Positions 4,761 through 29,534 of a stretch of 32,737 nt of DNA are shown here, piece by piece. The notes under the pieces are model-generated. The model was not told the origin of the DNA. It saw only the letters and a program-made list of their open reading frames with translations, and did no database searches. Source of the stretch: a virus. The stretch covers positions 466-33,202 of the IMG/VR virus record IMGVR_UViG_3300030390_001096; one strand, given 5' to 3'. Positions within the stretch are counted from its first letter, which is position 1; every line of letters starts with the position of its first letter. Made by a program: the position numbers and the translations under genes.

Positions 4761-5249
4761 ATGTTAGAAAAATTAGTACAAAGAAATAAAGATTGGCTTG
4801 CGATTGCTAAAAGCATTTGCGGAGATTACCATAAGGCTCAAGATATTGTACAGGATATGTACTTAAAACTCCAAAATTCTAAATTTCAAAGCGATTGGTT
4901 TGTGATTCATACAATGCGAAACCTTTACATCGACCAGATAAGAAAAAACAAAGAGGACTTATTTATCGAGGATATAGACCTAAAAGATTATAAAAATACT
5001 TTTGAGCCAAGCGACAAACAACAGATGTACCTAGATAGGTTTAATGACCTGCCTATGGTGCAACAGGAATTAATACAAGAGAGTTTCGATAAATCTACAA
5101 GACAGATAGGACGAGAGTTTAATATTAATTATTGTTATGTACATCGTCAAATACATAAAGGATTAAAAAAGATTTTAAAAGAGGATTACAAAAAATATAA
5201 AAATAGTAATCTAAAACACTTAAAAAAGCGTAAAAATGAAAGTAACTAA
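4761..5249 (+). CDS. Phage-encoded ECF-like sigma factor
   Basis: A 162-residue protein with the two-domain layout of extracytoplasmic-function sigma factors. Region 2 lies at about residues 10-65: DYHKAQDIVQDMYLKL at 22-37 matches the core-binding helix, usually DAEDLVQETFL, and MRNLYIDQIRKNK at 52-64 matches the -10 recognition helix. Region 4 lies at about 97-140: LPMVQQELIQESF, then a helix-turn-helix TRQIGREFNINYCYVHRQIHKGLKKIL. Regions 1, 3 and a long linker are absent, as in ECF sigmas. A basic tail (141-162) follows. It would direct host RNA polymerase to new promoters. The four GAAAC-N17-CGTC sites before structural genes fit the ECF promoter format, making this the likely late-gene switch. 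The end overlaps the next gene by 14 bp. Confidence 0.72.
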   Translation: MLEKLVQRNKDWLAIAKSICGDYHKAQDIVQDMYLKLQNSKFQSDWFVIHTMRNLYIDQIRKNKEDLFIEDIDLKDYKNTFEPSDKQQMYLDRFNDLPMVQQELIQESFDKSTRQIGREFNINYCYVHRQIHKGLKKILKEDYKKYKNSNLKHLKKRKNESN

Positions 5250-5779: not shown

Positions 5780-5797
5780 TTGGTTTTATAGGCGACA

Positions 5798-6043: not shown

Positions 6044-6086
6044 TGTATTGTTTATAACTATAGGGATTAATTTAAAACAAAGTCTT

Positions 6087-6099: not shown

Positions 6100-6217
6100 A
6101 TTGTCCGCTCAAGTATAATCGCTAACAGCAAATCGTAGGAGGTTAGCTTTCATATTACAAAACTCTTATTTTTTAAGCTCCTCCTACCTTGAGCTTATTT
6201 AATAGGAGTTTTTTTAT
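6100..6217 (+). ncRNA. Structured leader or small RNA with kissing-loop and terminator hairpin
   Basis: Hairpin 1: GCTAAC 6121-6126 pairs with GTTAGC 6142-6147, loop 6127-6141. Hairpin 2: 6159-6170 pairs with 6201-6212 (12 bp, one G-T), then a 3x3 internal loop, then TAAGCTC 6174-6180 with GAGCTTA 6191-6197, loop 6181-6190; it ends in seven T (6209-6215) and has terminator form. The loops are complementary over seven bases: GTAGGAG 6135-6141 and CTCCTAC 6181-6187. A competing fold uses GCTCAAG 6107-6113 with CTTGAGC 6188-6194, GTAGGAGG 6135-6142 with CCTCCTAC 6180-6187, and AGCTT 6145-6149 with AAGCT 6175-6179, which would destroy the terminator. It ends 10 nt before the primase ATG, so it is either an attenuator of replication gene expression or a terminated ~115-nt RNA. 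Confidence 0.65.
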
Positions 6218-13358: not shown

Positions 13359-13671
13359 AATACAGAGCCAGATATTCCAATGGCATTGGAACAACTACCC
13401 CAAAGAGCGAGGTTTACTTTGCTATAACCTAAACAACTCCGCTAACAAAATAGACGGCAACAGAAATAAGGCGCTTGGATTAATTAAAGGGCGCGCCGAT
13501 ATGGTTTATTATTACAATAGCTCTGCCGTAATGATTGAGTTAAAAAACGCCAAAGGAAAGCAAAGTAAAGAGCAGATACTATGGCAGGAACTACTAGAGT
13601 CTCAAGGATTCACATATATAGTTATCCGTAGCCTAGAAGAGTTTAAACATTTTAAAGAACAACTATGTTAA
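13339..13671 (+). CDS. VRR-NUC domain nuclease
   Basis: A 110-residue single-domain PD-(D/E)xK nuclease of the VRR-NUC type. The catalytic elements are GRADMVYYY at 51-59 (D54), the strand VMIELKNAKG at 64-73 (E67 and K69), and the later helix with SKEQILWQELLESQG, in the family order. I take ATG 13339 as start (13342 is also possible; a TTG lies at 13333); the catalytic core is unaffected. Stand-alone phage VRR-NUC proteins probably act as structure-specific nucleases, for instance resolving junctions in replicating DNA. The neighbour at 13665 carries a DnaA-like DNA-binding domain, and the end of this gene overlaps its start by 7 bp. Confidence 0.78.
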   Translation: MMLSEVKIQSQIFQWHWNNYPKERGLLCYNLNNSANKIDGNRNKALGLIKGRADMVYYYNSSAVMIELKNAKGKQSKEQILWQELLESQGFTYIVIRSLEEFKHFKEQLC

Positions 13672-14291
13672 AAAAGATTAAAAAAGCAGTCGAGAAAGTA
13701 ACCGACTTAAAAATAGATAAGAATACAAGGCAAAGGGAGTATGTAATGGCGAGATGCCTATACTTTCATTTTGCTAGAGAGCTAACAGGTAAACCATTCG
13801 CAGAGATAGGATCGACTACAGGACATCATCACTCCTCAGTATTGCACGCTTTAAATTGTTTCGATGTACATTACAAATACAGCGATTTTTTCAAACAAAG
13901 CTATCAATCCCTCGCCATTATTCTACAGCCTACAAAATCCAAAGAGTCTATAGTCGAGGAGCATATATCTCTCGACGAGGCAAAGGATAAGATTAAGACT
14001 TTAGTAAATGTTAACATAAAACTCCATGCACAGATAAAAGAGCTTAAAAATAACCTGCCCGATTTCGATAAGTATTTCGACGGCATACCAAAAGAGAGAG
14101 TACAATTTTTTATTAATAATCAAATGAGCGCTTTCTTAAATATGGAACGCGCTACAATTAAAAAGCAACAAAGTTATGAAAGAGAAAACGCCAAGATTAG
14201 AGAAACAAAGCAAACCATTAAACAAGCAAGTCTTGAGGAAACGGGTATCCGAACTAGAAACAAGGCTGTCAAATCTTCACTCCCTAGTTAA
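13665..14291 (+). CDS. Protein with DnaA domain IV-like DNA-binding region and coiled-coil tail
   Basis: A 208-residue protein. Residues 20-65 (TRQREYVMARCLYFHFARELTGKPFAEIGSTTGHHHSSVLHALN) match the pattern of DnaA domain IV, whose helix-turn-helix binds DnaA boxes. The usual signature GxRDHTTVxHA appears here as GHHHSSVLHAL at 53-63. No AAA+ domain precedes it. After about residue 90 the protein is helical and charged, compatible with a coiled coil. It might bind host DnaA boxes, or the phage iterons at 5798-6043, to start or block replication. The last 116 bp overlap another frame (14176-14382), so its exact C-terminal end deserves caution. Confidence 0.68.
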   Translation: MLKKIKKAVEKVTDLKIDKNTRQREYVMARCLYFHFARELTGKPFAEIGSTTGHHHSSVLHALNCFDVHYKYSDFFKQSYQSLAIILQPTKSKESIVEEHISLDEAKDKIKTLVNVNIKLHAQIKELKNNLPDFDKYFDGIPKERVQFFINNQMSAFLNMERATIKKQQSYERENAKIRETKQTIKQASLEETGIRTRNKAVKSSLPS

Positions 14292-15919: not shown

Positions 15920-15948
15920 TTTTGTTTAGTTTTGTTTAGTTTTGTTAG

Positions 15949-15975
15949 CCCTGCCTTAATCGGTGGGGTTTTTTT
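15949..15975 (+). terminator. Terminator between early and late regions
   Basis: CCCTGCC (15949-15955) pairs with GGTGGGG (15962-15968; two G-T pairs), loop of 6, then seven T. It lies just before the first GAAAC-N17-CGTC promoter and separates early transcription from the packaging genes. Tandem TTTGTTTAGT units (15921-15940) precede it; their complement resembles the early leader sequence. Confidence 0.75.
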
Positions 15976-15981
15976 ATATAA

Positions 15982-16007
15982 GAAACAATAGTATATATAT
16001 TTACGTC
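15982..16007 (+). promoter_or_regulatory. Late promoter P1, ECF type (GAAAC-N17-CGTC)
   Basis: GAAACAA starts at 15982 and TACGTC ends at 16007, with exactly 17 bases between GAAAC and CGTC; TTATATATA follows. The same arrangement is found at three other sites. The predicted start of transcription near 16015 would give a leader of about 35 nt for terS. Confidence 0.7.
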
Positions 16008-16050
16008 TTATATATAGGGTTAATACTAATAGTTAACGCCTATTAATAAT

Positions 16051-16347
16051 ATGACAAAAGGAGCAGGCAACATCGGGTGGTCTACAAAGACAAAAGGCAT
16101 CGATCGCCGCAAGAATCAATTTAAGCAGCTTATAACGGAGGCAACCTCTCAAGAGAACTTTATAGCTGTCTTTCAAACTTTAGAGGCGTCAGCTATGACG
16201 GGAGACGTTCAGAGCGCTAAGCTCTACCTAGAGTATACAATCGGTAAACCTATGCAAAGCGTAGATATAACCTCGGAGGGTAATAGCGTAAACATTCCTA
16301 CTATATCCTTTACCTCAACAATCGACGTAACTCCAGAGAATGAGTAA
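16051..16347 (+). CDS. terS: Terminase small subunit
   Basis: A 98-residue protein just before terL, overlapping it by 8 bp. The first half is basic (WSTKTKGIDRRKNQFKQLITEATSQENF), suitable for binding packaging sites. Residues 46-80 (TLEASAMTGDVQSAKLYLEYTIGKPMQSVDITSEGN) carry the LYLEYTIGKPxQSVDxTS phrase that I recognise from terminase small subunits of Bacteroidota phages. It would form a ring that binds viral DNA and recruits TerL. It is shorter than many TerS proteins and lacks a classical N-terminal helix-turn-helix that I can see, so DNA binding may use the basic segment. Confidence 0.72.
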   Translation: MTKGAGNIGWSTKTKGIDRRKNQFKQLITEATSQENFIAVFQTLEASAMTGDVQSAKLYLEYTIGKPMQSVDITSEGNSVNIPTISFTSTIDVTPENE

Positions 16348-17566
16348 CATAAACCTCAGCGAAAAATTTGCGCCATTGTTCGATATACCGCAGGGCGTGG
16401 ATACGTTTATTATAACAGGCGGAAGATTCTCACAGAAATCATTTGCGACGTCTCTAAGCGCTTTAAATAGTTGCACGAAGTATGAGCATCGAATTTTATA
16501 TTCAAGGTATACAAACGCCTCTCTCAAGGATTCCATCTTTGCTGAGGTCGAGGAGAAAATCGAAATCATGAATCTGGAGGACTCTTTCGAGTCGCAACAA
16601 AACAGGATTGTATCAAAATTCAATAAGAGCAAAATAGTCTTTAAAGGATTAAAGGCAGGTAGTGCTGTGCAATCTGCAAACCTCAAGGGGTTAAAAGATT
16701 TCTCTATGCTCATACTTGACGAGGCGGAGGAAATGCAAGACGAGGCAATATACGATAAGATAGTGCTATCAATTAGAGGAAACGACGCAAGCAATCCAAA
16801 CCGAAATATAAAGGTCTTAATCTTAAACCCTACGAGTAAGGAGCATTTTATCTATATGAAGTACTACGAGAGTAGAGGCGTGCAAGAGGGTTTTAATGGA
16901 GTAAAGGATAACGTCTGTTATATACATACCTCCTACCTCGATTGTTTGGAATTTGTACCCGATGAGATACTAGACTATTTCGAGGATATGAAAGTAAGCA
17001 ATCCAATCAAATACAATCACGTCGTGCTAGGCTCTTGGCTGTCAAAAGCGGAGGGCGTCGTATATAGTAATTGGAGATTTGGAGAGTTTAACCCCGACGG
17101 CTTACAGGTTATCTTTGGACAGGATTACGGCTTTACCGATCCGACAACCTTAGTAAAAATTGCCATAGATAAAAAGAACAAAATAATCTACGCAAAGGAG
17201 GAGCTATACAAATCGAAGTTAACCATCTCCGAAATATACGCAATCAATAGACAGAGAGCAGGGCGCAATCTAATCATAGGAGACAGCGCAAGCGCAGGAA
17301 CTATCGCAGAGATGCAAAAGCTAGGTCTTAATATTAGAGGCGCTAAGAAAGGGGCAGGGAGTATCGCGGCAGGTGTGGCATTGATTCAAGACTACGAGCT
17401 TGTCGTACACCCAGACTCTAACAATATGGCAAAGGAATTAAACAACTATATCTATTCAGATAAGGGAGCTAATTTATTTTGTGATTTGTACAATCATAGT
17501 CTCGATGCGCTGAGGTACGGCGTTTCTCATTTGCTTGCGAATCGTGGAAAGGTAGAGATAAGGTAA
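16340..17566 (+). CDS. terL: Terminase large subunit (PBSX/Terminase_3 type)
   Basis: A 408-residue packaging motor. The ATPase domain has a Walker A-like GGRFSQKS at 27-34 (Gln replaces the usual Gly before K33), a Walker B LILDEAEE at 124-131 with D127 and E128, and a coupling motif ILNPTS at 161-166. The nuclease domain has QDYGFTDPTT at 261-270 (D262), IGDSA at 313-317 (D315) and HSLDALRY at 386-393 (D389), the three metal-binding acids of RNase H-like terminase nucleases. It translocates DNA into proheads and cuts it. Its neighbours here are unusual: no portal follows, and the next gene is the tail assembly chaperone. A late promoter lies right after its stop. Confidence 0.93.
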   Translation: MSNINLSEKFAPLFDIPQGVDTFIITGGRFSQKSFATSLSALNSCTKYEHRILYSRYTNASLKDSIFAEVEEKIEIMNLEDSFESQQNRIVSKFNKSKIVFKGLKAGSAVQSANLKGLKDFSMLILDEAEEMQDEAIYDKIVLSIRGNDASNPNRNIKVLILNPTSKEHFIYMKYYESRGVQEGFNGVKDNVCYIHTSYLDCLEFVPDEILDYFEDMKVSNPIKYNHVVLGSWLSKAEGVVYSNWRFGEFNPDGLQVIFGQDYGFTDPTTLVKIAIDKKNKIIYAKEELYKSKLTISEIYAINRQRAGRNLIIGDSASAGTIAEMQKLGLNIRGAKKGAGSIAAGVALIQDYELVVHPDSNNMAKELNNYIYSDKGANLFCDLYNHSLDALRYGVSHLLANRGKVEIR

Positions 17567-17567
17567 A

Positions 17568-17593
17568 GAAACAAAACCCCCTTAAATTACGTC
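17568..17593 (+). promoter_or_regulatory. Late promoter P2, ECF type (GAAAC-N17-CGTC)
   Basis: GAAAC at 17568-17572 and CGTC at 17590-17593 are separated by exactly 17 bases, followed by TTATATAT and then the ATG at 17602. If transcription starts 7-8 bases after CGTC, the mRNA would have almost no leader. This would drive the tail chaperone to tape measure genes. Confidence 0.7.
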
Positions 17594-17601
17594 TTATATA
17601 T

Positions 17602-18210
17602 ATGACAGAGACTCTTAGCATTTTAGTACCCGAAAACATCTCAGATATTACTCTGGATCAATACGTCAAGTTTGAGGCATTGAGAGCAAGAGAGGATACT
17701 CTAACAGAGCAGGGAATGATTGAGAGAGTTATATCTCTGTTTACAGGAATCAAAAAACAAGACGTTAAAAAATTAGTACACAAAGACTATGAGGGTTTAA
17801 TGGCTCAGATAATTGCAGCCTGTGAGCAAGAGGTAGGATTCGAGCAGCGCTTTATGCTTGACGGCGTAGAGTACGGCTTTATCCCAAACCTAGACGAGAT
17901 AACGACGGCGGAGTATGTAGACCTCAGCACTATAGGAATGAAGCTCGAGGATATGCACAAAATAATGGCTATACTATTTCGCAGGATTACAGAGGAGGAC
18001 TCTTTCGGAAACTACGAGATACTACCCTACAGCCATAATAAAGAAAATGACGAGGTCATGAGAGCCTGCCCTATGAATATAGTTAACGGCGCTCTGGTTT
18101 TTTTTTGGAGTTTATCGAGGGAATTAAAGGAGGCTATCCAGAAATCTACGAAAGCTCTGGAGGAGAGAAACAAGCCTCAAGCTATTTTTCCAAATGGGGT
18201 TGGTATGTAA
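17602..18210 (+). CDS. Tail assembly chaperone, short (gpG-like) form
   Basis: A 202-residue protein. It opens with ILVPENISDITLDQYVKFEALRA, a phrase typical of tail assembly chaperones in Bacteroidota phages. It lies a few genes before the tape measure gene, as such proteins do, and is thought to coat the tape measure protein while the tube is built. Near its end the frame runs through nine T (18098-18106), and a second frame, open from 18087 to 18359, continues without its own start. This is the G/GT arrangement of lambda: ribosomes that stay in frame make this 202-residue form, while those slipping back by one make a longer form. The short form ends at 18210. Confidence 0.75.
   Translation: MTETLSILVPENISDITLDQYVKFEALRAREDTLTEQGMIERVISLFTGIKKQDVKKLVHKDYEGLMAQIIAACEQEVGFEQRFMLDGVEYGFIPNLDEITTAEYVDLSTIGMKLEDMHKIMAILFRRITEEDSFGNYEILPYSHNKENDEVMRACPMNIVNGALVFFWSLSRELKEAIQKSTKALEERNKPQAIFPNGVGM
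18098..18106 (+). promoter_or_regulatory. Slippery T9 site for programmed -1 frameshift
   Basis: Nine T residues are read as GTT TTT TTT TGG in the upstream frame. Slipping one base back on TTT TTT gives TTG GAG TTT and enters the frame that ends at 18359. The alternate frame has a stop at 18084-18086, so slippage must happen between 18087 and 18210; this is the only homopolymer of that length there. Confidence 0.7.
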
Positions 18211-18359
18211 GTATTGAAATGTTAGCGAATAACGATATACTAAAAATTGATAAAGTACTAGCGACAAAGGTACATGAATTTCATACGTTCCTAGCTCACA
18301 AATTAGACAGGCAGAAAATGGAGGCGCAACTAAGAAAACCAAACGTAACACAATTATAA
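18105..18359 (+). CDS. Frameshift extension of the tail assembly chaperone (gpGT-like T domain)
   Basis: 84 codons in the -1 frame relative to the chaperone gene, with no ATG at its beginning, so it should be made only as a fusion: 168 residues of the upstream frame plus these 84, about 252 in total. The content, FSKWGWYVSIEMLANNDILKIDKVLATKVHEFHTFLAHKLDRQK, resembles the C-terminal part (KWGWYxxLxxLAxxDILKxDxVLxxxxHExLTFL) I associate with chaperone fusions of Bacteroidota phages. In lambda the T domain recruits the tail tube protein to the chaperone-coated tape measure; the same role is inferred here. The TAA shares a base with the next ATG (TAATG). Confidence 0.72.
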   Translation: MEFIEGIKGGYPEIYESSGGEKQASSYFSKWGWYVSIEMLANNDILKIDKVLATKVHEFHTFLAHKLDRQKMEAQLRKPNVTQL

Positions 18360-18823
18360 TGAACGCATACAGCACACTACTAAGATATATAAGAACTCTT
18401 GCAGAACAGGACGAATATGTCAAGACCATAACGACGGGCGAGGATATAGACCTCAACAAAGGAAACTTATTTCCGCTTTTTAACATTGATATAACAGACG
18501 CGACTTTTACCTCAACAGCGACAATCTCGTTTAGTCTAAATATACAATGCCTAGATATAAGAGAGATTAATAACGAAAATGTAAACGACAAATTTTATCT
18601 AAACGATAACTCGACGGATAACTTTAACTCGACGCTAACGTGCCTAAATGCGCTATGGGTAAAAATGTATAGAGACTTTGCAAAAAACAATATAACGGCG
18701 TCAGAGAGTCCGACGTTGCAACAGATAACATACTCGGATAAGAATTTGCTAGACGGGTGGGATATGTCTTTCGATGTTGAAATGCCTATCTCAGAAACAA
18801 ACCTCTGCTTTTGGATAACTTAA
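18359..18823 (+). CDS. Tail/neck structural protein, unknown
   Basis: A 154-residue protein with a helical start (LLRYIRTLAEQDEYVKTITTG) followed by a beta-rich body (ITDATFTSTATISFSLNIQCLDIRE), reminiscent of tail terminator or completion proteins that cap the tube. It follows the chaperone with a one-base overlap. No firm family assignment is possible. Its position before a gp10-like gene agrees with a head-tail joining role. Confidence 0.55.
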   Translation: MNAYSTLLRYIRTLAEQDEYVKTITTGEDIDLNKGNLFPLFNIDITDATFTSTATISFSLNIQCLDIREINNENVNDKFYLNDNSTDNFNSTLTCLNALWVKMYRDFAKNNITASESPTLQQITYSDKNLLDGWDMSFDVEMPISETNLCFWIT

Positions 18824-19368
18824 AGAAAATATTTGACAAGCTAGGGAGCAATGTAGTAGCTCAAGCAAGAGTCAATCTAAAGAAAAAAAAGAAAGGCGAT
18901 AGCAACCTATCTAAAAACCTATCCTATAAAGTAAAGCGTAACTCTATAGAGTTTACTCTAGCGGAGTATTGGGAGTATGTAGACGCAGGGGTTAAAGGTG
19001 TAGGAGGTAGCAAAGCGTCTGAGATGGGGGTAAAGCTAAAAAGTCCTAAGCCTTGGAAACTAAAAAAGGTAACAAATAACAAGTTTAAGTACACAGATAA
19101 AAAGCCGCCGTTTATGGCTTTTAACGGGTGGACTATCCGAAAGGGTATAGCGCCTAGAAATAAGAAAGGGCAGTTAATGAAACGCAAGAGCTTGCTTTAT
19201 GCTATCGCTAATAGCGTATATCACACAGGTATTGAAACGACGCATTTCTTTACCGACGCCCTAGACAATGAAGTGTTAAAACTAGGCGACGAAATAGGCG
19301 AGGCTTTCGCTTTAGACCTTATCGACGGAATGAATATAAAAAGTAATAACGTAACAATAACAAAATGA
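18811..19368 (+). CDS. HK97 gp10-like head-tail joining / minor tail protein, TTG start
   Basis: A 185-residue basic protein. The pattern, with an N-terminal helix (IFDKLGSNVVAQARVNLKKKKKGDSNLSKNLSYKV), then a strand and the YWEYVDAGVKG phrase, then a loop with KPPFMAFNGWTIRKGIAPR and a C-terminal helix, matches gp10-like connector or minor tail proteins. No ATG exists near the beginning; the likely start is TTG at 18811, overlapping the upstream gene by 13 bp. The next in-frame Met is over 70 residues downstream and would remove the conserved helix. Its end overlaps the next gene by 4 bp (ATGA). Confidence 0.65.
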   Translation: MDNLKKIFDKLGSNVVAQARVNLKKKKKGDSNLSKNLSYKVKRNSIEFTLAEYWEYVDAGVKGVGGSKASEMGVKLKSPKPWKLKKVTNNKFKYTDKKPPFMAFNGWTIRKGIAPRNKKGQLMKRKSLLYAIANSVYHTGIETTHFFTDALDNEVLKLGDEIGEAFALDLIDGMNIKSNNVTITK

Positions 19369-20426
19369 TAAGAGCATTAAGTCCGTTTTATATAGATACT
19401 CCTTTGGTGTATGGAGGTGTAACCTGCGCAAAATATATCCTAAATGTTTGGGTATGGAATGGCGACAAGTCTACTCCAGACTCTACTAATAGCTACCAAA
19501 TAACCTATGAAAACACAACGGCATCGACGGGAACGCATAGCATAAATATAAACGCAATTATACAAGACTATATTGAGTTTAAAGAGCCTACTCCGTCGCT
19601 AGTTGCAGGGGTGCAAGTTATAGACGGAAACAATCAGCAATGGGTATATAGCTATGTAACCTATGACGCTGTCGCTACTATACAAAATGAGGCAACGGAT
19701 ATAATGGTATTAGGATATGCGTACGGAAACGAGGGTAAAAATGTTACATCGGTTAAAAACAATACCTTGCTTATACCTCAACAATATAAAGTTAACAGAC
19801 AAGGAAGTTTTGTCTTTCCTATTTTTGTACCTACGGGATTTACTCCGCAAGCTATTAGCGTAAAGTCTTATCCTGCGTTAACTATCAATTTCACGAATAC
19901 ACCTGCGCAGTCAGACCTTAGTAACAAGGTTGTAAAATACCTCTGGATCGATGTATCCGTAGCTACTAACGAGTCGTATATAGAAATAATCTGGAACGGC
20001 AAAACGACGACGTTAGACATTACAAGAGAATGTAAATATACTCCCTTGGATACATTTTTTCAAAATAAGGACGGCGCTTTGCAGAGCTTTACATTATTTA
20101 AAAAGCAAGAGGAAAGCATAAACGTAACGGATAGTAATTTCGAGACTAACAGAGGGCAAGCCTCAGCAGGATTCCATCAGTTTGTAAGGTACGGCGTTCA
20201 AGCTAGGACTACATTAACAGCGGAAACGGGTTGGCTTGACGAGGATATGAACGAGATTGTTAAACAGATACTACTAACAGAGCGAATCTGGAGCTTTGCG
20301 AGTGGTGTATACACACCTTTAAACCTAAAAATGACCTCGCAGAAATTCAAGACAAGGCAAAACGATAGGCTTATTAACTATACAATGACGTTCGAGAAGA
20401 GTTACAACGAAATAAACAACATATAA
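19365..20426 (+). CDS. Conserved tail structural protein
   Basis: A 353-residue beta-rich protein starting MIRALSPFYIDTPLVYGGVTCAKYILNVWVWNGD and ending with TGWLDEDMNEIVKQILLTERIWSF...KMTSQKFKTRQNDRLINYTMTFEKSYNEINN. I associate these phrases, especially the xNExIKQxLLSExVW and LINYTxxFExA parts, with a tail protein widespread in Bacteroidota phages. It may lie in the tail tip or baseplate. It is coupled to the gp10-like gene by ATGA and lies 2 bp before a large tail protein. No enzymatic motifs are visible. Confidence 0.65.
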   Translation: MIRALSPFYIDTPLVYGGVTCAKYILNVWVWNGDKSTPDSTNSYQITYENTTASTGTHSININAIIQDYIEFKEPTPSLVAGVQVIDGNNQQWVYSYVTYDAVATIQNEATDIMVLGYAYGNEGKNVTSVKNNTLLIPQQYKVNRQGSFVFPIFVPTGFTPQAISVKSYPALTINFTNTPAQSDLSNKVVKYLWIDVSVATNESYIEIIWNGKTTTLDITRECKYTPLDTFFQNKDGALQSFTLFKKQEESINVTDSNFETNRGQASAGFHQFVRYGVQARTTLTAETGWLDEDMNEIVKQILLTERIWSFASGVYTPLNLKMTSQKFKTRQNDRLINYTMTFEKSYNEINNI

Positions 20427-20428
20427 GT

Positions 20429-22792
20429 ATGGTTAACCTATTTATTAACGGCGAATTACTAGACCAATACAAGGACGAGAGCGTGGATATAGTTAGCTCT
20501 GTTTTAGATGTGAGCGATATTACAAAAAATACAGGCGATTACTCTAAATCTTTTACGATTCCTGCGTCTAAAAATAACAATCGTATCTTTAAACATTGGT
20601 ATAACGCATCTATAGATAACGGATTCGATGCTAGGAGTAAGGTAGAGGGTAGTATAGATATTGACGGCGTACCTTTCAAGCTTGGAACTTTTAAGTTAAA
20701 CAAGTGTAATATTGTAAAGGGTAGGCTTGAGAGTTATACGATTAATTTCTTTGGAAACCTTCCGAATATTAAGGATACAATAGGCGAGGATATGTTAAGT
20801 GATTTATCCTTTCCTGCCCTAGACCATGACTGGACGAGCGACAACGTAAAAAGCGGACTGCAAAATGGCTTAGTAAATAAAGATATTGTTTATACCTTAA
20901 TGGCAAACAAGCGCTATTTTTATAACTCAAATACCGCAGCGCCCGACGTAAATGCTACAACTATAAACATAGCAAACGGAGCAAATCCTGCAAACGCTAC
21001 AGGCGTAGTGTGGAGCGACCTAAGACCTAGCGTACGACTATCTAAAATAATCGAGGCAATCGAGACGAGATACAACGCTGCAACCTATGAGAATCCTATA
21101 GTATTTTCAAGGGATTTTTTTGGTACGACTGAATTTAAAGAGCAGTATCTTTGGCTAAAGGCAGACGACGAGGTAGCGATAGGCGGCGGCGAGGCGATTG
21201 TAGATTTTACAAGCGGAGACGGAACTTATATAAATTTAGGTACTAATAAAGGAACTTTTACTACTATACAATCTGGAATATCAAGGCAAAATTTTGCAAT
21301 ATCTAATATTATAACCCCTGCGTCTGGTTACGAAAATGTACCCTATACTTTTATAGTTAGAAACGCAGATACAAACGAAGACGTCTACGCTTGGGATAGT
21401 GAGCAATGGGCTAACGGCGACGGCGTTATCTCAATAGGTACTAGCTTATTCTCTCCAAGCGGTACGACTATTTTTAACTTTACTTGGCACGTAAAGAGTA
21501 ACGCAAAAATCGAGTTTACGTCCTCTGTTAGTGTCTTAAAATATATAGCAAATTTCCCAATACCACCATTTAATACAACGATCGGAGCAAGTCAAACCCT
21601 AGTAAATAAGGTAATAATAGGCGACGAGATGCCAGAGCTAAAAATCGTTGACTTTATAAAGGGCATTTTCAATATGTATAAACTTGTAGCGATTCCAAAA
21701 TCCGACGGCAGTATATACATAAACTCTCTAGATTCTTACTACTCTCAAGGTAAAAGATACGACGCTACAAAATACGTTGACTTTTCAAAGTTTGACGTTG
21801 ACAGAGGCGAGCTTTTAAAGCGCATATCGTTTGAGTTTGAAGAGCCTAGCACTATTTTAAATATGGAATTTAAAAAGAGAGCGGCGGACGGGCAAGGTTA
21901 CGGAGCATCGCTTGTAAATGTATACGAAAGCCTAACGCCAAAGAAACTAATTGACGGCGATACGCTAGAGGTAAAACTGCCGTTTGAGCAAATATACTTT
22001 GAGAAATTAACAGACCAAAATACAGCGGTTGCAGACGCAAATACAAATATACAAACGGGCGTAATACTAGACGACAATTTAAATCAAGTTGTACCTAAGG
22101 CGGTTTTGCATTATGTAACTAGACAGGATATATCTAGCACGCCCATACGTTTTGTTAATGACCTAGCGGCGGACGTTGTTTTAAATACGGAGCTAAATTC
22201 TCCTATACATCATTTTGGAGTTAATAATCCAATGTACTCAAATGTATTTGAGGCAGAGGCTAGTAATTTTACAGGCGAGGCTTTAGTTAATAATTTATAT
22301 AGTATACATTACAAAGATTATGTAACCGCAATTTTTGAGCTAAAGAGACGGACTTTTAAGTACGTTGCAAACCTGCCTATACAGATAGTTACAAGGCTAG
22401 ATTTAAACGATGTAATCGCAATCAATGAAATAGACTACAGGATAAATAAGTACTCTTATAACCTCTTAAACGGCTTGACAAAATTAGAGCTAATAAATGG
22501 CTTTGATACTACTCTAAAAAATAAAGTATACATTCCGTCTACTATAAATACTGGGCGATTAGCTCAAGACTTTACATTTAACGTCGAGGGTATTTCTACG
22601 GATTACGTTGTTACAAAAGTAGACACAGGCGACGGCACAACTTGGGCGACTACATCTGTAGTAGGAGCGGATAACAATTTGGCAGGTATTAATATTGCAA
22701 CTATGGGCAGCGGCACAATTACGCGGACTATGATAATAAGATACACAGGTAACGGATTAACAACGGATATAATAATACTACAAAATGAGTAA
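20429..22792 (+). CDS. Large tail tip / baseplate protein
   Basis: A 787-residue protein. The N-terminus (LFINGELLDQYKDESVDIVSSVLDVSDITKNTGDYSKSFTIPASKNNNRIFKHW) is a recognisable start of large tail proteins in Bacteroidota phages, with the SKxFxIPASKxNNxxF phrase. The middle is beta-rich. The region around residues 620-690 (HYKDYVTAIFELKRRTFKYVANLPIQIVTRLDLNDVIAINEIDYRINKYSYNLLNGLTKLELI) resembles the barrel at the end of gp27/gpD-like hub proteins. The last ~80 residues may be an added domain. I infer a hub or tail tip component. It lies upstream of the tape measure gene, not downstream as in most siphoviruses. Confidence 0.65.
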   Translation: MVNLFINGELLDQYKDESVDIVSSVLDVSDITKNTGDYSKSFTIPASKNNNRIFKHWYNASIDNGFDARSKVEGSIDIDGVPFKLGTFKLNKCNIVKGRLESYTINFFGNLPNIKDTIGEDMLSDLSFPALDHDWTSDNVKSGLQNGLVNKDIVYTLMANKRYFYNSNTAAPDVNATTINIANGANPANATGVVWSDLRPSVRLSKIIEAIETRYNAATYENPIVFSRDFFGTTEFKEQYLWLKADDEVAIGGGEAIVDFTSGDGTYINLGTNKGTFTTIQSGISRQNFAISNIITPASGYENVPYTFIVRNADTNEDVYAWDSEQWANGDGVISIGTSLFSPSGTTIFNFTWHVKSNAKIEFTSSVSVLKYIANFPIPPFNTTIGASQTLVNKVIIGDEMPELKIVDFIKGIFNMYKLVAIPKSDGSIYINSLDSYYSQGKRYDATKYVDFSKFDVDRGELLKRISFEFEEPSTILNMEFKKRAADGQGYGASLVNVYESLTPKKLIDGDTLEVKLPFEQIYFEKLTDQNTAVADANTNIQTGVILDDNLNQVVPKAVLHYVTRQDISSTPIRFVNDLAADVVLNTELNSPIHHFGVNNPMYSNVFEAEASNFTGEALVNNLYSIHYKDYVTAIFELKRRTFKYVANLPIQIVTRLDLNDVIAINEIDYRINKYSYNLLNGLTKLELINGFDTTLKNKVYIPSTINTGRLAQDFTFNVEGISTDYVVTKVDTGDGTTWATTSVVGADNNLAGINIATMGSGTITRTMIIRYTGNGLTTDIIILQNE

Positions 22793-22943
22793 CGATATAA
22801 CAGAGGTAATCGATATACTAAGGCGATCGGATTTTTACGGCGCAGGCGACTGCGTAGAGATAGCAAAGGGCAAAAGGGAAATCTTAGCCTCTTGGAGTGG
22901 ATTAAAAAGGAAAGTTAAACGTACTATAAAAGCAAAAAAATGA
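22785..22943 (+). CDS. 52-residue basic protein between tail genes
   Basis: The product starts MSNDITEVIDILRRSDFYGAG and ends in a Lys/Arg-rich tail (LKRKVKRTIKAKK). It overlaps the tail tip gene by 8 bp and its stop overlaps the tape measure ATG (ATGA at 22940-22943), so translation is well supported although the gene is short. It is probably a small structural or assembly factor; the family is unknown. Confidence 0.6.
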   Translation: MSNDITEVIDILRRSDFYGAGDCVEIAKGKREILASWSGLKRKVKRTIKAKK

Positions 22944-24700
22944 AAGAGGTTAAGATTAAAATTGTAGCGGATACAGGGCAAGCAAAAAAAGGGATTGACG
23001 GATTAACAGGCTCGACCGAAGAGCTAGGAAATGAAGTAAACAAAACCTCAAAAAAAACATCTGGACTAGGAGACTCTGTCGATAAAATGACAGGCGGAGC
23101 GTTAACAGGATTAAAAAAATTCGCAGGAGGATTAAAAGCTATTGCAATGGGTTTCCGTACTATTGGAGGAGCTATCGCTGCTAGTGGTATCGGTTTAATT
23201 GTTATAACTATCGCAGCGCTTACAGCAGCCTTTCAAGGCTCTGAAGAGGGGCAGAATAAGTTTGCTAAAATAATGGGAGTCATAGGAGCGGTAACGGGAA
23301 ACCTAGTCGACCTATTAGCCGATTTCGGGGAGCTTGTTATCTCAGCTTTTGAAAATCCAAAAAAGGCTATAAGTAGCTTTGCAAAACTTATAAAAGAAAA
23401 TATTGTTAACAGGTTTGAGGGAATGGTTGAGCTTATACCACAACTAGGCAAAGCAATAACTTTACTTTTTAAAGGAGAATTTTCTGAGGCGGGTAAAGTG
23501 GCAGGAGACGCAGTCGCAAAAGTTACTCTAGGAATCGACGATATGTCTGGCAAAATAAAAGCAGCGACAGAGGCGACAAAAGGCTTTATAGACCAAAACT
23601 TAAAAGAGGGAGCTGCGGCTGCAAAGGTCGCAGACCAAAGAGCAAAAGCCGACAAAATAGAGAGAGGTTTATTAGTAAGAAGAGCAAAAGCAGAGAGGGA
23701 AATCGCGGAGCTACGACTTAAAGCTAAAGACCTAAACAATGTAAGCGCAGAGGAGCGAGAGGCGGCGCTTATGAAAGTGCTTGAAATTCAAGACGGACTT
23801 GCTGTTTCAGAGGTCGAAATTGCACAACTTAGAAGTGATGCGCAAACAGCAGAGAATACCTTTGCTAGAAGTACAAAAGAAAATTTGCTCGAAGAGGAAA
23901 GATTAAAGGCGGCAGTTATAGCGGTAGAAACTCGTAGAATAGACCAAAAACGAGCAATACAGAGAGAGCTAACGGCGGCAGAAAACGAAATAAACAGAGC
24001 AGCAAAAGAGGCGCAAAAGATTTTAGACGACGAGAAAAAAGTTAAAGATGCAAAAGATATTTCCGACGCTAAAATAAAGGCAGCCGAATTAAAAAAAATA
24101 CAAGAGCAAGCAGACAAGGACGCCGCAGACTTAGCGGCTCAAAAATTAGCAGCTCAAAAAGCTGTAGCAGCCGCAGAGTTGGAAGTAAGAAACGCAACTT
24201 TAAATAATATAAGTAGTGGTATTGGCTTGCTTGCATCTCTCGGCGAAGAGTCTAAGGGGTTACAAGCCGCGGCATTAATTGGCGAGTCAGCGGTAAATAT
24301 TGCTAAAACAATAGTAAATACTCAAGCATCAAATGTCGCAACGACTGCGCAAGGTGCTTCGCTTGCGTTCGCTAGTGGAGGTACATCTGTTGCAGCGGCT
24401 ACCGCGCTTGTTTTACAAAACAATATTGCCGCAGGTATTGGGATAGCTACAAATATAGCGGCTACAGCTAAAGGACTCGCAGCTTTAGGCAAAGGAGGAG
24501 CGCCGTCCAAAGGAGACGCAGGAGGCGCAGACGCAGGCGCAACCGCTCCTGCCTTTAATCTAGTAGAGGGAACGGAAAGCAACGCAATACAGGACAGCAT
24601 AACAGGGCAAGACAACGCCGTCAAGGCGATAGTTGTTAGCGGAGACGTTACCACAGCTCAAAGCGCCGACCGAAACGCTGTAGACTCAAGCGGATTTTAA
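22940..24700 (+). CDS. Tape measure protein
   Basis: A 586-residue protein with the typical tape measure profile. A charged N-terminus starts MKEVKIKIVADTGQAKKGIDGLTGSTEELGNEV. Hydrophobic segments lie near residues 75-100 (IGGAIAASGIGLIVITIAALTAAF) and 110-135. A long Ala/Glu/Lys helical region from about 195 to 420 is probably a coiled coil, then a Gly/Ala-rich hydrophobic stretch (450-530) and an Asp/Ser-rich end. It sets tail length and may enter the host membrane at ejection. With the usual rule of about 0.15 nm per residue, the tail would be close to 90 nm, short for a siphovirus; this is an estimate. No lytic domain is visible. Confidence 0.85.
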   Translation: MKEVKIKIVADTGQAKKGIDGLTGSTEELGNEVNKTSKKTSGLGDSVDKMTGGALTGLKKFAGGLKAIAMGFRTIGGAIAASGIGLIVITIAALTAAFQGSEEGQNKFAKIMGVIGAVTGNLVDLLADFGELVISAFENPKKAISSFAKLIKENIVNRFEGMVELIPQLGKAITLLFKGEFSEAGKVAGDAVAKVTLGIDDMSGKIKAATEATKGFIDQNLKEGAAAAKVADQRAKADKIERGLLVRRAKAEREIAELRLKAKDLNNVSAEEREAALMKVLEIQDGLAVSEVEIAQLRSDAQTAENTFARSTKENLLEEERLKAAVIAVETRRIDQKRAIQRELTAAENEINRAAKEAQKILDDEKKVKDAKDISDAKIKAAELKKIQEQADKDAADLAAQKLAAQKAVAAAELEVRNATLNNISSGIGLLASLGEESKGLQAAALIGESAVNIAKTIVNTQASNVATTAQGASLAFASGGTSVAAATALVLQNNIAAGIGIATNIAATAKGLAALGKGGAPSKGDAGGADAGATAPAFNLVEGTESNAIQDSITGQDNAVKAIVVSGDVTTAQSADRNAVDSSGF

Positions 24701-24708
24701 CAAATAGT

Positions 24709-24734
24709 GAAACAAAAACCGCTATAAATACGTC
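24709..24734 (+). promoter_or_regulatory. Late promoter P3, ECF type (GAAAC-N17-CGTC)
   Basis: GAAAC at 24709-24713 (here TGAAAC) and CGTC at 24731-24734 with exactly 17 bases between, then TATATAATATA. The gene start at 24750 follows after 15 nt. It would drive the protease/scaffold and major capsid genes, needing high late expression. Confidence 0.7.
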
Positions 24735-24749
24735 TATATAATATAGCCT

Positions 24750-25901
24750 ATGAAAAGATACGAGGGGAAATACAATAAAAAGAGCAAAGGAGTCTTTGCA
24801 ATATCATTGGTAAACGCACCTGCCACAGGCGAGCATTATATCGCAATGGCTAAACAAGACAAAATTGTTAAGTTTGCAAAAGTAGACGAGGAGCAGCGTA
24901 TTTTAATGGGCTTAGTATTACAGCCCGACCAGTTAATCTACAGAGTAGACGAAAACGGCGACGAGTTTGAGATGTTTTTTAGTGCTGAAACTATAAAAGA
25001 TTTTTCTCAAAACTTTTTTCAGTCTGGATTCCAATTAAACTCTAAACTAGAGCATGACGAGACTATCGAAAATGTTACGTTTGTAGAGTCGTGGCTAGTA
25101 GCCGATCCAAAGAAAGATAAAAGCGCAGCCTACGGACTTAGTTATCCTGTTGGCTCTTGGCTCGTTTCTATGAAAGTAGATAATGACGATATTTGGAACA
25201 ACTACATTAAGACGGGCGAATTAAAGGGTTTCTCTATCGACGGGATGGTAGAGCTTGAGGAAGTAAATTTTAAATCTAATATACAAATGAGTAAAAGTAA
25301 CAAGAATATCATTGCTTTGCTAAAACAGATAGTATCTGGAGCAGAGCAGGACGTAGAGGTAACTCTAGGAAGTGTAAAATCTGGCGAGCTAGATATACAA
25401 TTTGACGGCGAAACTTTAGAGGTTGGAACGGCTGTATTTTTAATAGCAGACGACGAGGAGAAAGTGCAACTAGCCGACGGAACGTATAAAATCGACGACG
25501 CAGGCGAAATCGTTGTAAAAGACGGACTTGTAGAGTCTATGTCTGAGGGCGAGGAAGTAGTAGACGAGGAAGTAGTCGAAGAGGTAGAGCCAGAGGCAGA
25601 GCTTGCCGAAGAGGACGAAGTAATCGAAGAGGTTAACGCAGACGAGGAGTCTATGAGAGTAATTAAAGAGATTTTAGACGATATGTTTAAGGCTTACGCC
25701 GAGAGTATGGAGATTAAAATGAGCGCTTTAGATGCTAAACTAGAAACTTTAACGTCTGAAAACGTAGAGTTAAAAGAGCAGGTCGTAACACTTTCGGCGC
25801 AGCCGTCAGTTAAGCCTATAAGCTCACAGCCTAAGCAAGTGGCAATGACAAAGCAAGGGCGAATCCTTGAGACTATTAAACAAGCAAACCAAAACAAGTA
25901 A
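24750..25901 (+). CDS. Prohead protease-scaffold fusion (XkdF-type)
   Basis: A 383-residue protein. Residues 45-170 resemble the XkdF-like serine protease domain: ILMGLVLQPDQLIYR, then SKLEHDETIENVTFVESWLVADP (candidate catalytic H102), then YPVGSWLVSMKVDNDDIWNNYIKTGELKGFSIDGMVE (candidate nucleophile S162 in GFSIDG). After a linker, residues about 255-305 are extremely acidic (EEVVDEEVVEEVEPEAELAEEDEVIEEVNADEE) and 305-350 form a coiled coil, the profile of a capsid scaffold. A basic, Gln-rich C-terminus ends it. Such fusions scaffold the prohead, then cleave it. It is directly followed by the major capsid gene, agreeing with this role. It is behind late promoter P3. Confidence 0.8.
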   Translation: MKRYEGKYNKKSKGVFAISLVNAPATGEHYIAMAKQDKIVKFAKVDEEQRILMGLVLQPDQLIYRVDENGDEFEMFFSAETIKDFSQNFFQSGFQLNSKLEHDETIENVTFVESWLVADPKKDKSAAYGLSYPVGSWLVSMKVDNDDIWNNYIKTGELKGFSIDGMVELEEVNFKSNIQMSKSNKNIIALLKQIVSGAEQDVEVTLGSVKSGELDIQFDGETLEVGTAVFLIADDEEKVQLADGTYKIDDAGEIVVKDGLVESMSEGEEVVDEEVVEEVEPEAELAEEDEVIEEVNADEESMRVIKEILDDMFKAYAESMEIKMSALDAKLETLTSENVELKEQVVTLSAQPSVKPISSQPKQVAMTKQGRILETIKQANQNK

Positions 25902-25929
25902 ATTAATTAATTTAAAAATAGATAAAAGA

Positions 25930-26847
25930 ATGGCAATTACATCAAATTATGCAGGAATCCCCGCAGTGGACATAATGCTAAAAGCAATCAAGGAAGAGGA
26001 TACTTTAAGACTTGGACTTATCAATGTTGTACCTAACGTAGGATACAAATTAAACTTAAGAAACCTAGACGTTACTCTAGGAGTAGTAGACTACGCTTGT
26101 GGAACTACACCTGCAACAGGAGCAGTAGCTTACGCAGAGAAAGTTTTAACACTTTCAAAGTTTAAAAATGAGTTTACAATCTGTAAAGAAGATTTCCGCC
26201 CAACATGGAGCGGCGAGTCTATGGGCGCGTCTGCTTTTAACGACCAAACACCTCAAGAGATTGCAGACGCAATCGTAGCAGATACATCTGCAAGGCTTGC
26301 GGAATGGTTTGAAGACCAAATCTGGAACGGATCGGGAGCAGCAGGAAACATGAGCGGACTAATCCCTCAGTTTTTAGCAGACGGAGACGTTATCCAAGCA
26401 AACGGAGGAATTACTGCAATCGGTGCGGCTGTAACTACAGCGAATGTACTAGCAGTATTTGACGCGGCTACGGCAGCATTGCCTTACGCACTAAGACGTA
26501 AAGCGGTAAACTTTATCGTATCTCCAGACGTTGCGGATTCTTACATGAAGTTACTTATCCAAAACGGAGCAGCTAACGGATTAGGTGGAGACGCTAACAC
26601 AGGAATGGTATACGGACGTTACAATGTGCAAGTTGTAAATGCCCTCCCAGACAACACTATCGTTTTATTTCAGAAAGAAAATATAACTATGGGTACAGGA
26701 TTAGCCTCAGATGCGACCTCTATTAGAGTGAAAGACCTAGACGAGGTAGATTTGAGCGGAAACGTTTTGTATAAGTCTGTATTCGGTGGAGCTGTAGGAT
26801 ATTCTTACGGAACGGAAATAGTTTGGTTACTTACTACAATAGCCTAA
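25930..26847 (+). CDS. Major capsid protein (HK97-fold type)
   Basis: A 305-residue protein. The start is the ATG at 25930 (MAITSNYAGIPAVDIMLKAIKEEDTLRLGLINVVPNVGYKLNL); an earlier in-frame codon lies in the protease gene. The order protease/scaffold then this gene, the length, the N-terminal helical arm and the late part (PYALRRKAVNFIVSPDVADSYMKLLIQNG...TGMVYGRYNVQVVNALPDNTIVLFQKENITMGTGLASD) fit a major capsid protein with the HK97 fold, including P-domain and A-domain-like phrases. Codon choice is strongly biased and GC at third positions is higher than average, as for a highly expressed gene. A strong terminator follows 6 bp downstream. Confidence 0.85.
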   Translation: MAITSNYAGIPAVDIMLKAIKEEDTLRLGLINVVPNVGYKLNLRNLDVTLGVVDYACGTTPATGAVAYAEKVLTLSKFKNEFTICKEDFRPTWSGESMGASAFNDQTPQEIADAIVADTSARLAEWFEDQIWNGSGAAGNMSGLIPQFLADGDVIQANGGITAIGAAVTTANVLAVFDAATAALPYALRRKAVNFIVSPDVADSYMKLLIQNGAANGLGGDANTGMVYGRYNVQVVNALPDNTIVLFQKENITMGTGLASDATSIRVKDLDEVDLSGNVLYKSVFGGAVGYSYGTEIVWLLTTIA

Positions 26848-26852
26848 ATATT

Positions 26853-26877
26853 AGGGGGTGTAAAAACCCCCTTTTTT
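26853..26877 (+). terminator. Strong terminator after the major capsid gene
   Basis: AGGGGGT (26853-26859) pairs with ACCCCCT (26866-26872) around a 6-nt loop, followed by a T run to 26877. It would end capsid transcription from P3, so genes beyond get less of this message. Confidence 0.88.
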
Positions 26878-26929
26878 AAAAGCATTAATAATCGGTTACA
26901 TAAAGTAACTATCTAATATACAATAACTT

Positions 26930-27442
26930 ATGGCGTGTTTAATCACATCGGGGAGAGCTAAAGTGTGTAAGGACGGGCTTGGCGGTCAGTCTACACTATA
27001 CCTCTTTAACAGCCTACCAGATGCTTTCACTATTTTAAACGGAGAAGCTACTGCAATGAATGCAGCATTAACTGCGGCGTTTGCTTATCCTTTAGAGGGA
27101 GACGGCAATACACTAGAGCAGTCAATGGTAGGAGACAGAAATACAAGCAGTCGAGTAAATACTCAGACGCTTACTACTATTTTGAAATCAATGGACGCTG
27201 CAACAAATGCAGAGTTTAATCTATTAGCGGCAGGGTATCCGTCTGCGGTAGTAGTTGACAGAAACGGCAACTATATAGCTATCGGTCTTGACGACGGAAT
27301 CGACTTTACAATCGTTGCCTCGACGGGCGGCGCTAAAACGGACGGAAATATGTACACATTGACAGGTGTATCCACAACCAAAAATTTAGCTCCATTTTTA
27401 GACTCGGCTACTCAAACCTCTTTTTTAGCGGTAGTATCTTAA
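26930..27442 (+). CDS. Major tail tube protein
   Basis: A 170-residue protein starting MACLITSGRAKVCKDGLGGQSTLYLFN, with a beta-sandwich-like body and SAVVVDRNGNYIAIGLDDGIDFTIVASTGG near residue 105. It is related to the N-terminal part of the protein at 30097: both begin MAxxxxxGxxxxCKDxxGGxxxxYLF and share the DRNGNYxxIGLxxGxxxTIxAxTGGxK block, so they are paralogues. Length, position after the capsid gene and the strand pattern suggest the tail tube protein. It lies between two terminators; the region 26878-26929 contains an inverted repeat GTTAC/GTAAC and an AT-rich TAATATAC, which may be its own promoter. Confidence 0.7.
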   Translation: MACLITSGRAKVCKDGLGGQSTLYLFNSLPDAFTILNGEATAMNAALTAAFAYPLEGDGNTLEQSMVGDRNTSSRVNTQTLTTILKSMDAATNAEFNLLAAGYPSAVVVDRNGNYIAIGLDDGIDFTIVASTGGAKTDGNMYTLTGVSTTKNLAPFLDSATQTSFLAVVS

Positions 27443-27460
27443 TCTAATTTTTTACTATAA

Positions 27461-27495
27461 AAAAAGCCTTGCATTAATTTGTAAGGTTTTTTTTT
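27461..27495 (+). terminator. Terminator after the tail tube gene
   Basis: CCTTGCA (27467-27473) pairs with TGTAAGG (27480-27486; one G-T pair), loop of 6, with an A run before and nine T after (27487-27495). It directly precedes late promoter P4. Confidence 0.85.
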
Positions 27496-27504
27496 GCCTT
27501 AATA

Positions 27505-27530
27505 GAAACAAAAAAGCACATTTTTACGTC
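27505..27530 (+). promoter_or_regulatory. Late promoter P4, ECF type (GAAAC-N17-CGTC)
   Basis: GAAAC at 27505-27509 and CGTC at 27527-27530, again exactly 17 bases apart, then TTAATAATATA. It lies 10 nt after the T run of the previous terminator and 23 nt before the ATG at 27554. It would drive the portal, connector, tail fibre and perhaps lysis genes. Confidence 0.7.
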
Positions 27531-27866: not shown

Positions 27867-29534
27867 ATGAGTGATATTAAACTAATAACATTAACTAGCT
27901 ACTCCAGACCGCCTCTTGTAGAGGATAAGTCTAAGGATTGGGTAATGAATGGGCGTAATAATGACTATTATAATTACATTATTTCGCGAAATAACGGGAG
28001 TCCTACAAACTCAAGTATTAATCAGTCTTATAGTACCCTAATTTATGGTAAAGGATTGCGCACATCTAGCGGATCGTTAGGCGCAGAGAATTGGGGTAGA
28101 TTACAAACGATATTAAGACCTAGAGAACTGCGTAAAATGGTCGCAGATTTTCAAGTTTTTGGCGAGTTTAGCTTTGAGGTTATAGAAACCAAAGGCGGAG
28201 AGTTGCATTCTTTGACGCATATACCTAAACAAATGGTTATCCCGTCTATTGCAAACGAAAAAAACGAAATAGAGCATTATTGGTTTTCTAAAAATTGGCG
28301 TAAATATACCGACGTAGAAAATACGCCCGTACTTTTTAACGCTTACGGCGCTGCGAAAGGCAACTCTGTTTATGTAGCAAAGCCTTATGTCGTTGGTGCT
28401 GAATATTTTGGCGCTCCAAGCTATACGGCGGCTTTAGTATATGCCGAAATGGAGGAGGAAATAGCCAACGTACAAATATCGTCTATTAAAAACGGATTAA
28501 GCGCAGGGTATATAATACAGATACCAAACGGAACAAATTACACTCCAGAGGAGAAAGAGGAGTTTGAAAGACAAGTTAAACGTAAACTAGTTTCTAGCTC
28601 GAACGCGTCGAACTTTATTATTAGCTTTAACGACCAAGAGGTAGCTATAGAGGTAACTCCGTTTCCTGTAAATGCTAACGTACATAAGCAATGGGAAACG
28701 CTAACCAAAGAGGCAAAAAATCAAATAATGACAGCGCACAAAGTAATTAGTCCGTCGTTAGTAGGTTTATCGTCTGCAAGTGGTTTTAGCTCTGTAGCCG
28801 ACGAGATGGATATGAGCGAGCGCCAAACTATAAAAAGAGTTATAAAGCCAAAGCAAGACTTTATCCTAGACTCAATCGAGGAGGTTTTAATTAACTACGG
28901 CATTAACCTAGATTTACACTTTGCGCCGCTTACAGAGGAAATTATAGAGGTAAAAGAGGAAACCGCAGAGTTAAGCTCTCACGTTTGCATGAGTGAGGAT
29001 ATTCAAATGTTTGCAATACTTGAAAAATACGCTCTTGACTCTCCAGAGGGTTACGAATTAACAGACGGCAAAGAGTATGACGTTAAAATGTCGGCAAATC
29101 AAACAAGCGAGCAGGATACAAAGCTATGGAAAACTCGCTACGCATTTACTAAAGGTACTAGCAAAACTCCAAAAGGTCAATCTAGGTCTTTCTGTAATAA
29201 AATGGTTTCACTATCGGACGCAGGTAAAGTTTACCGCAAAGAGGACATCGAATTAATGAGCCAACAGGGTGTAAATGGCAAGTTTGCGCATAGTGGAGGG
29301 AAATACGACATTTTTCTTTATGGCGGCGGAGTTAATTGTTACCATCGCTTTGAAAGGAGAGTCTTTAAAAAGAAATTAAAGGAGGACGGAAAGCCTAAAG
29401 GCGGCGGAGCGATGCAACAGACAATACCTGTAAACGTAAACGAGGCAAAAAGACAAGGATATAAGCCTGTAAAAAACTCTCCAGACGTTGCAATCGCAGA
29501 AATAGACAAACCAAATAACGGCAGATTTAAATAA
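27867..29534 (+). CDS. Portal protein with fused C-terminal minor head-like domain
   Basis: A 555-residue protein. Residues 1-330 show portal features: an N-terminal stretch, AELRKM-like helices (PRELRKMVADFQVFGEFSFEVIETKGG), YGAAKGNSVYVAKPYV, a helical stem region (YTPEEKEEFERQVKRKLVSSSNASNFIISF), and QIMTAHKVISPSLVGLSSASGFSSVADEMDMSERQTIKRVIKPKQDFILDSIEEVLI, which is the conserved portal end. Residues about 390-510 add another domain (LWKTRYAFTKGTSKTPKGQSRSFCNKMVSLSDAGKVYRKEDIELMSQQGVNGKF...YGGGVNCYHRFERRVF), similar to a part usually found at the end of separate minor head proteins. The dodecameric portal is the DNA gate. It lies far from the terminase genes, unusually. Confidence 0.78.
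   Translation: MSDIKLITLTSYSRPPLVEDKSKDWVMNGRNNDYYNYIISRNNGSPTNSSINQSYSTLIYGKGLRTSSGSLGAENWGRLQTILRPRELRKMVADFQVFGEFSFEVIETKGGELHSLTHIPKQMVIPSIANEKNEIEHYWFSKNWRKYTDVENTPVLFNAYGAAKGNSVYVAKPYVVGAEYFGAPSYTAALVYAEMEEEIANVQISSIKNGLSAGYIIQIPNGTNYTPEEKEEFERQVKRKLVSSSNASNFIISFNDQEVAIEVTPFPVNANVHKQWETLTKEAKNQIMTAHKVISPSLVGLSSASGFSSVADEMDMSERQTIKRVIKPKQDFILDSIEEVLINYGINLDLHFAPLTEEIIEVKEETAELSSHVCMSEDIQMFAILEKYALDSPEGYELTDGKEYDVKMSANQTSEQDTKLWKTRYAFTKGTSKTPKGQSRSFCNKMVSLSDAGKVYRKEDIELMSQQGVNGKFAHSGGKYDIFLYGGGVNCYHRFERRVFKKKLKEDGKPKGGGAMQQTIPVNVNEAKRQGYKPVKNSPDVAIAEIDKPNNGRFK

Follow-up and report, generated by a model that had tools for sequence, protein, structure and literature searches.

What reads the four widely separated but identically spaced elements of a Bacteroidota phage genome, and are they promoters? 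The elements lie in a stretch of 32,737 nucleotides (positions 466 to 33,202 of IMG/VR virus record IMGVR_UViG_3300030390_001096), here called the window, which is almost the whole of the 33,202-base viral record. An earlier note on this DNA had proposed that they form a late regulon of an extracytoplasmic function (ECF) sigma factor encoded by the phage itself at position 4761. The form and place of the elements, their conservation in relatives and their covariation with the sigma factor support this proposal. The elements are very probably the -35 and -10 parts of late promoters that would be read by the phage ECF-class sigma together with host core RNA polymerase. The analysis covers the presence, position, conservation and covariation of the sites. 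These patterns suggest direct sigma binding and transcription start sites, and the gene content of the units suggests late timing. The sigma gene, the predicted promoters and the hairpins next to them are as follows.

4761..5249, plus strand: ECF-class sigma factor gene, 162 amino acids, with region 2 at about residues 5-64 and region 4 at about residues 86-145
15947..15970, plus strand: terminator-like hairpin with a T run, directly upstream of P1
15982..16007, plus strand: P1, GAAAC-N17-CGTC predicted late promoter, 43 nucleotides before the ATG of the TerS-position gene at 16051
17568..17593, plus strand: P2, predicted late promoter, 8 nucleotides before the ATG at 17602
24709..24734, plus strand: P3, predicted late promoter, 15 nucleotides before the ATG at 24750 (protease and capsid unit)
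about 27465..27497, plus strand: terminator-like hairpin with a T run, upstream of P4, read from the sequence
27505..27530, plus strand: P4, predicted late promoter, 23 nucleotides before the ATG at 27554 (portal and tail unit)

The four GAAAC-N17-CGTC elements listed in the earlier note are present at these coordinates, and the spacer is exactly 17 bases in each. The shared GAAACAA and TACGTC that it described are also present. The extended form GAAACAA-N13-TACGTC occurs in the window only at these four places, even with one mismatch allowed (0.03 expected). The short form GAAAC-N17-CGTC has five exact matches in the window, compared with 0.18 expected. The fifth, at 21360-21385, lies inside the open reading frame (ORF) at 20429-22792, and is without GAAACAA or TACGTC; overall, the count is far above chance. 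With a weight matrix built from 11 distinct sites from the window and its relatives, the four sites score 36.9-50.4 bits and nothing else in the window exceeds 10.1 bits. This next-best match overlaps site 4 in the reverse orientation. The four elements also show the ECF promoter form, with an AAC core in the -35 element and GTC or GTT in the -10 element, 16-17 nucleotides apart.

The placement of the elements is regular. All four are intergenic, as the earlier note had stated, and precede TerS/TerL, a second structural unit, the protease and capsid genes, and the portal and tail genes. These are the only matrix-supported sites in the window, and none precedes replication genes. P1 and P4 each directly follow a terminator-like hairpin, P2 directly follows the terL stop at 17566, and P3 directly follows the tape-measure stop at 24700. 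P2 is predicted to yield a leaderless mRNA, because the -10 element of Mycobacterium tuberculosis SigH ends at -9, so that the 8-nucleotide gap would put the A of the ATG at +1.

The gene at 4761 had been described as an ECF-like sigma with regions 2 and 4, and this is borne out by profile matches and the predicted fold. Region 2 matches Pfam PF04542 (Sigma70_r2) with 28.3 bits against a cut-off of 24, and the model is matched in 13 of 15 family members. TIGR02937 (sigma70-ECF) spans residues 3-140 and is passed narrowly (43.1 bits, cut-off 42.9); it matches 14 of 15 relatives at E<=0.01. The Pfam region 4 models match only a few relatives of the window sigma. In the window sigma itself, region 4 is covered by the Foldseek matches and TIGR02937, and regions 1 and 3 are absent. 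The AlphaFold2 model (predicted local distance difference test, pLDDT, 84.8; predicted template modelling score, pTM, 0.48) has two helical domains and is based on a 55-sequence alignment, which replaced a 5-sequence version (pLDDT 60). Its best Foldseek matches in the PDB are all ECF sigmas with a probability of 1.00; the TM-scores are low and the root-mean-square deviations high, which is attributed to the different placement of the two domains in the model, and the match is domain-wise. Judged from its sequence and predicted fold, the window protein belongs to the ECF class.

Relatives of the sigma are found in at least 470 stretches of viral contigs. Among bacterial species genomes, searched with one short peptide pattern, there is a single sigma-family match, on a contig where homologues of phage portal and protease are encoded as well. 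The near-absence of the family from bacterial genomes is only suggestive. The more distant TerL relatives G074-G078 (L305-L309) also encode a sigma of this phage family. The gene at 5236-5727 overlaps the 3' end of the sigma gene and contains cysteine pairs (CGC, CANC), with no family match. A counterpart also adjoins the S2 and apparently the S3 sigmas described below, and the gene is a candidate sigma partner or anti-sigma.

Related contigs were gathered by TerL, capsid-region protein or portal kinship. In these contigs 226 homologous sites were counted, one of which (distance 4506) was discarded as an artefact of a truncated hit. The 225 usable sites are all covered by three sequence forms, or dialects: D1 (GAAAC-N17-CGTC), D2 (GAAAC-N16-CGTT) and D3 (TAAC-N16-TGTT). 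Because some loci overlap on one contig, not every site is an independent observation, and the single-dialect test was run on merged contigs. Among the 78 contigs that have at least two sites, 74 keep to a single dialect, compared with a mean of 28.8 and a maximum of 44 in 5000 shuffles. The gap between the -10 element and the ATG is independent of dialect, at 43 or 44 nucleotides for P1, 8 for P2, 15 or 16 for P3 and 23 or 24 for P4. The P1 position is kept in the 57 relatives' loci that have that gene and its flank, in dialect D1, D2 or D3, and the P2 gap is 8 nucleotides in 56 of 56 sites. In L015, L024 and L029, extra small ORFs or noncoding inserts occupy the gap between terL and P2, and the promoter is still 8 nucleotides before the downstream gene. 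A D3 phage carries a 258-amino-acid ORF between terL and the P2 gene (L014:4337-5113, minus strand). By eye, its N-terminal part is GIY-YIG-endonuclease-like and is fused to a sigma C-terminal half (region 4).

The sigma types follow the dialects. S1 sigmas (the window, L001, L002 and L003) occur with D1, S2 sigmas (L007 and L137) with D2, and the S3 sigma (the L018 contig) with D3. Between S1 and S2, region 4 is near-identical and the -35 GAAAC is shared, whereas region 2 and the -10 element differ. In S3 the recognition helix is altered (NYCYVHRQ to NYGYVHKK), and the -35 element is altered too. Such a pattern would be expected from reading of the -35 element by region 4 and of the -10 element by region 2.

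At the residue level, the -10 tetramer was compared with sigma columns in 38 contigs that hold promoters and a complete sigma; 37 of them entered the tree. The covariation test used 24 divergent representative sigma-promoter pairs and 141 sigma columns; promoters of distant contigs were assigned partly by eye, which could favour tidy assignments. Base -11 covaries best with residue 58 (D58 in the window sigma; family-wise p 0.005), and the same residue is best for base -12 (family-wise p 0.029). For base -9 the best column is residue 44 in the specificity loop (family-wise p 0.083). In the crystal structure of the M. tuberculosis SigH open complex, N92 hydrogen-bonds with the -11 pair, and residues T76/N77 of the specificity loop bind the -9 base (PMC6411747). 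Residue 58 corresponds to SigH N92 in an alignment made here of the motif W81-x6-N88-x3-N92, and the equivalence of residue 44 to SigH N77 hinges on a loop gap. At residue 58, D pairs with CGT and AGT and, in one clade, also with TGTT; N pairs with TGTT (6 of 6), A or S with xATT (5 of 5), and K with ACTC. This residue changed at least eight times in a tree built without that column. For the -35 element, the associated residues are 124 and 125, where the recognition helix begins; this is the expected place, but the associations are not significant after correction. The concerted switching of dialects with a putative sigma residue code, drawn from sequence covariation, is the wider and more interesting finding.

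The cultured relatives P12024L and P12024S (Inhavirus; host Nonlabens, also named Persicivirga) have a related TerL, capsid-region protein and protease and a sigma-70 region 2 gene, annotated as such in P12024L gp35, with P12024S gp33 as its counterpart. Unlike in the window, the dialect is AAAAC-N16/17-CGTT, and the sigma, about 24-30% identical, is placed just upstream of the terminase. P12024L contains nine matches to AAAAC-N16/17-CGTT, compared with 1.18 expected. The seven on the forward strand, which begin at 145, 2997, 5378, 22057, 24738, 25977 and 27578, sit 7-8 nucleotides upstream of the annotated ATGs of gp01, gp05, gp08, gp37, gp42, gp45 and gp46. The residue-58 equivalent in the P12024L sigma is D, in agreement with the residue-code prediction for CGTT. 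When phage collections were searched with the capsid-region protein and with the sigma, only Nonlabens P12024L/S matched; no dedicated comparison with Grimontviridae was made.

Several results weigh against a phage-sigma regulon or its residue code. Four of the 78 multi-site contigs mix dialects. The -35 covariation fails multiple-testing correction (best p 0.09-0.12 with the 24 representatives). In the clade G101/G102/G106/G113/G119, D occurs alongside AGTT as well as TGTT sites. For each trait, well-supported branches yield no more than two independent pairs; almost all of them change as predicted, a number too small for significance (sign test p 0.5). Among near-clade contigs holding both sigma and promoters, seven agree and three disagree. 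In the mosaic contigs G004 (L143/L370), L005 and L231, the sigma type and the late-promoter type are mismatched. In G004 and L231 the change-over is between the structural and sigma regions, and in G004 it falls within a stretch common to both types at >85-90%; the mosaic contigs are possibly chimeric assemblies or true recombinants. The S5 sigmas, sought via G004 to test the pairing of N with TGTT, have D, and as G004 is mosaic they neither confirm nor refute it. The S5-type contig L419 has TTAC-N18-CGTT with D, which is consistent with the residue code. A loose count of same-dialect dyads per genome does not separate sigma-positive phages from sigma-negative phages or shuffles. This count was dropped as evidence for lack of discrimination.

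The sites could instead be promoters of a host ECF sigma, with the phage sigma acting elsewhere. The -35/-10 form is generic, a single genome would look alike under both readings, and Flavobacteriia encode many ECF sigmas. This explanation is nevertheless improbable, since the sites within a contig share one dialect, which differs between near-identical phages, and the -10 element covaries with residue 58 of the phage sigma. In addition, the matrix scan of the window shows no second group of matching sites.

Somewhat less probable still is that the sites are operators or activator sites of another phage protein and that the host housekeeping sigma initiates. The -35/-10 function of the sites is a prediction. 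The fixed spacing of 16 or 17 and the fixed short distance to the ATG fit -35/-10 geometry instead. The residue-level agreement with ECF contacts also speaks against operators. None of the four sites shows the Bacteroidota housekeeping consensus TTTG-N18-22-TANNTTTG, and host housekeeping promoters were dropped as a candidate on this ground. The sites do fall between modules, as recombination signals can, and they could be chance repeats or conserved non-promoter DNA such as packaging or recombination signals. This is hardly credible: the counts are far above chance, and the sequence shifts in concert across sites with position kept, behaviour not expected of a passive joint. P2 also stays before its gene despite insertions between terL and that gene. 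Packaging or recombination repeats were dropped given the counts and the concerted change.

In the favoured reading of a regulon of the phage's own sigma, the sigma would be made from the early region and would join host core RNA polymerase as a holoenzyme. Its region 4 would read GAAAC and its region 2 CGTC. Four units would thereby be switched on: the terminase, the second structural unit, the protease and capsid, and the portal and tail. The same arrangement, in varied dialects, would be common to a large phage group related to Nonlabens P12024. A broader proposal, for and against which the balance is even, is that a large, virus-specific ECF family drives late transcription in phages of Bacteroidota, that the regulon dialect switches with one or two sigma residues, that part of the late messages are leaderless, and that the sigma type is a recombination compatibility type. 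The residue code in this proposal would be D or N for G at -11, A or S for A, and K for C, with N for T at -12.

Phage sigmas that redirect host polymerase to late genes include T4 gp55 and SPO1 gp28 and gp33-34. These are not of the ECF class, and T4 uses a single TATAAATA element and clamp coupling. The earlier note had held that phages are not commonly described as using an ECF-type sigma for late transcription. This has to be corrected, as such use is already known for phiEco32 gp36 and 7-11 gp47 (PMC8948821, PMC4281155). Salmonella phage 7-11 has an ECF-type sigma and bipartite promoters with a 16-nucleotide spacer before late genes, and late-promoter use by gp47 was shown in vitro (PMC8948821). 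It differs in being a Gammaproteobacterial Grimontviridae podophage with eight promoters of other -35/-10 sequence, GTAAtg-(16)-aCTA. By eye, the N92 equivalent of gp47 is G, with C at -11, and no dialect series is described. By analogy, the window system probably works like that of 7-11; its genes place the phage with P12024. In phiEco32, the ECF-type sigma gp36 acts with host core on middle and late genes (PMC8948821, PMC4281155), but the promoter is a single element, tAATGTAtA, and gp36 is without region 4 homology. That phage also has gp79, an inhibitor of host sigma70, for which no search was made in the window. Bacterial ECF sigmas (M. tuberculosis SigH, SigE and SigL; Bacillus subtilis SigW) share the two-domain fold, the -35 AAC core and the -10 GTC or GTT, and the reader residues align. 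They differ in being chromosomal, usually with an anti-sigma. No paper on a Bacteroidota-phage version of an ECF late regulon was found among the open-licence papers that were searched. The Bacteroidota family, the dialect switching and the residue code appear to be new.

Judged by its genes, the window represents a Bacteroidota siphophage with kinship to P12024L/S (46% identity in TerL and 37% in the capsid-region protein). The virus is a marine-type Bacteroidota phage with its own small sigma factor. The genes of the four units referred to above are as follows.

16051..16347, plus strand: TerS-position gene, named from its place before terL
16340..17566, plus strand: terminase large subunit (terL), matching PHROG phrog_2 and others
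17602..18210, plus strand: first gene of the P2 unit, a structural-region protein without assigned function
24750..25901, plus strand: head maturation protease-like gene
25867..26847, plus strand: capsid-region virion protein, likely the major capsid protein
27867..29534, plus strand: probable portal protein, from position and kinship; the P12024L gene in the same place is annotated as portal

Outside these units, a noncoding stretch of about 250 bases that precedes the primase gene (5795-6050) contains many copies of AAACACGACA and TGTCGTGTTT in both orientations, which look like iterons of a replication origin. An inverted repeat, GTAGGAGG...CTCCTCCTAC, lies immediately upstream of the primase gene (6130-6215) and is also present in L234. 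A 208-amino-acid protein encoded at 13665-14291 contains only the C-terminal DNA-binding domain of DnaA.

The regulon would give a late-gene control mechanism for a large, mostly uncultured group of Bacteroidota phages for which promoter knowledge is thin. The late-gene class of such phages could be found in metagenomes from sequence alone, and P12024L is a cultured system suited to testing the late-sigma idea. The sigma-promoter pairs form a natural series with several changes of specificity. This series may help to decode how ECF sigmas read the -10 element and may be useful for orthogonal expression parts. The system also suggests a barrier to recombination between phages.

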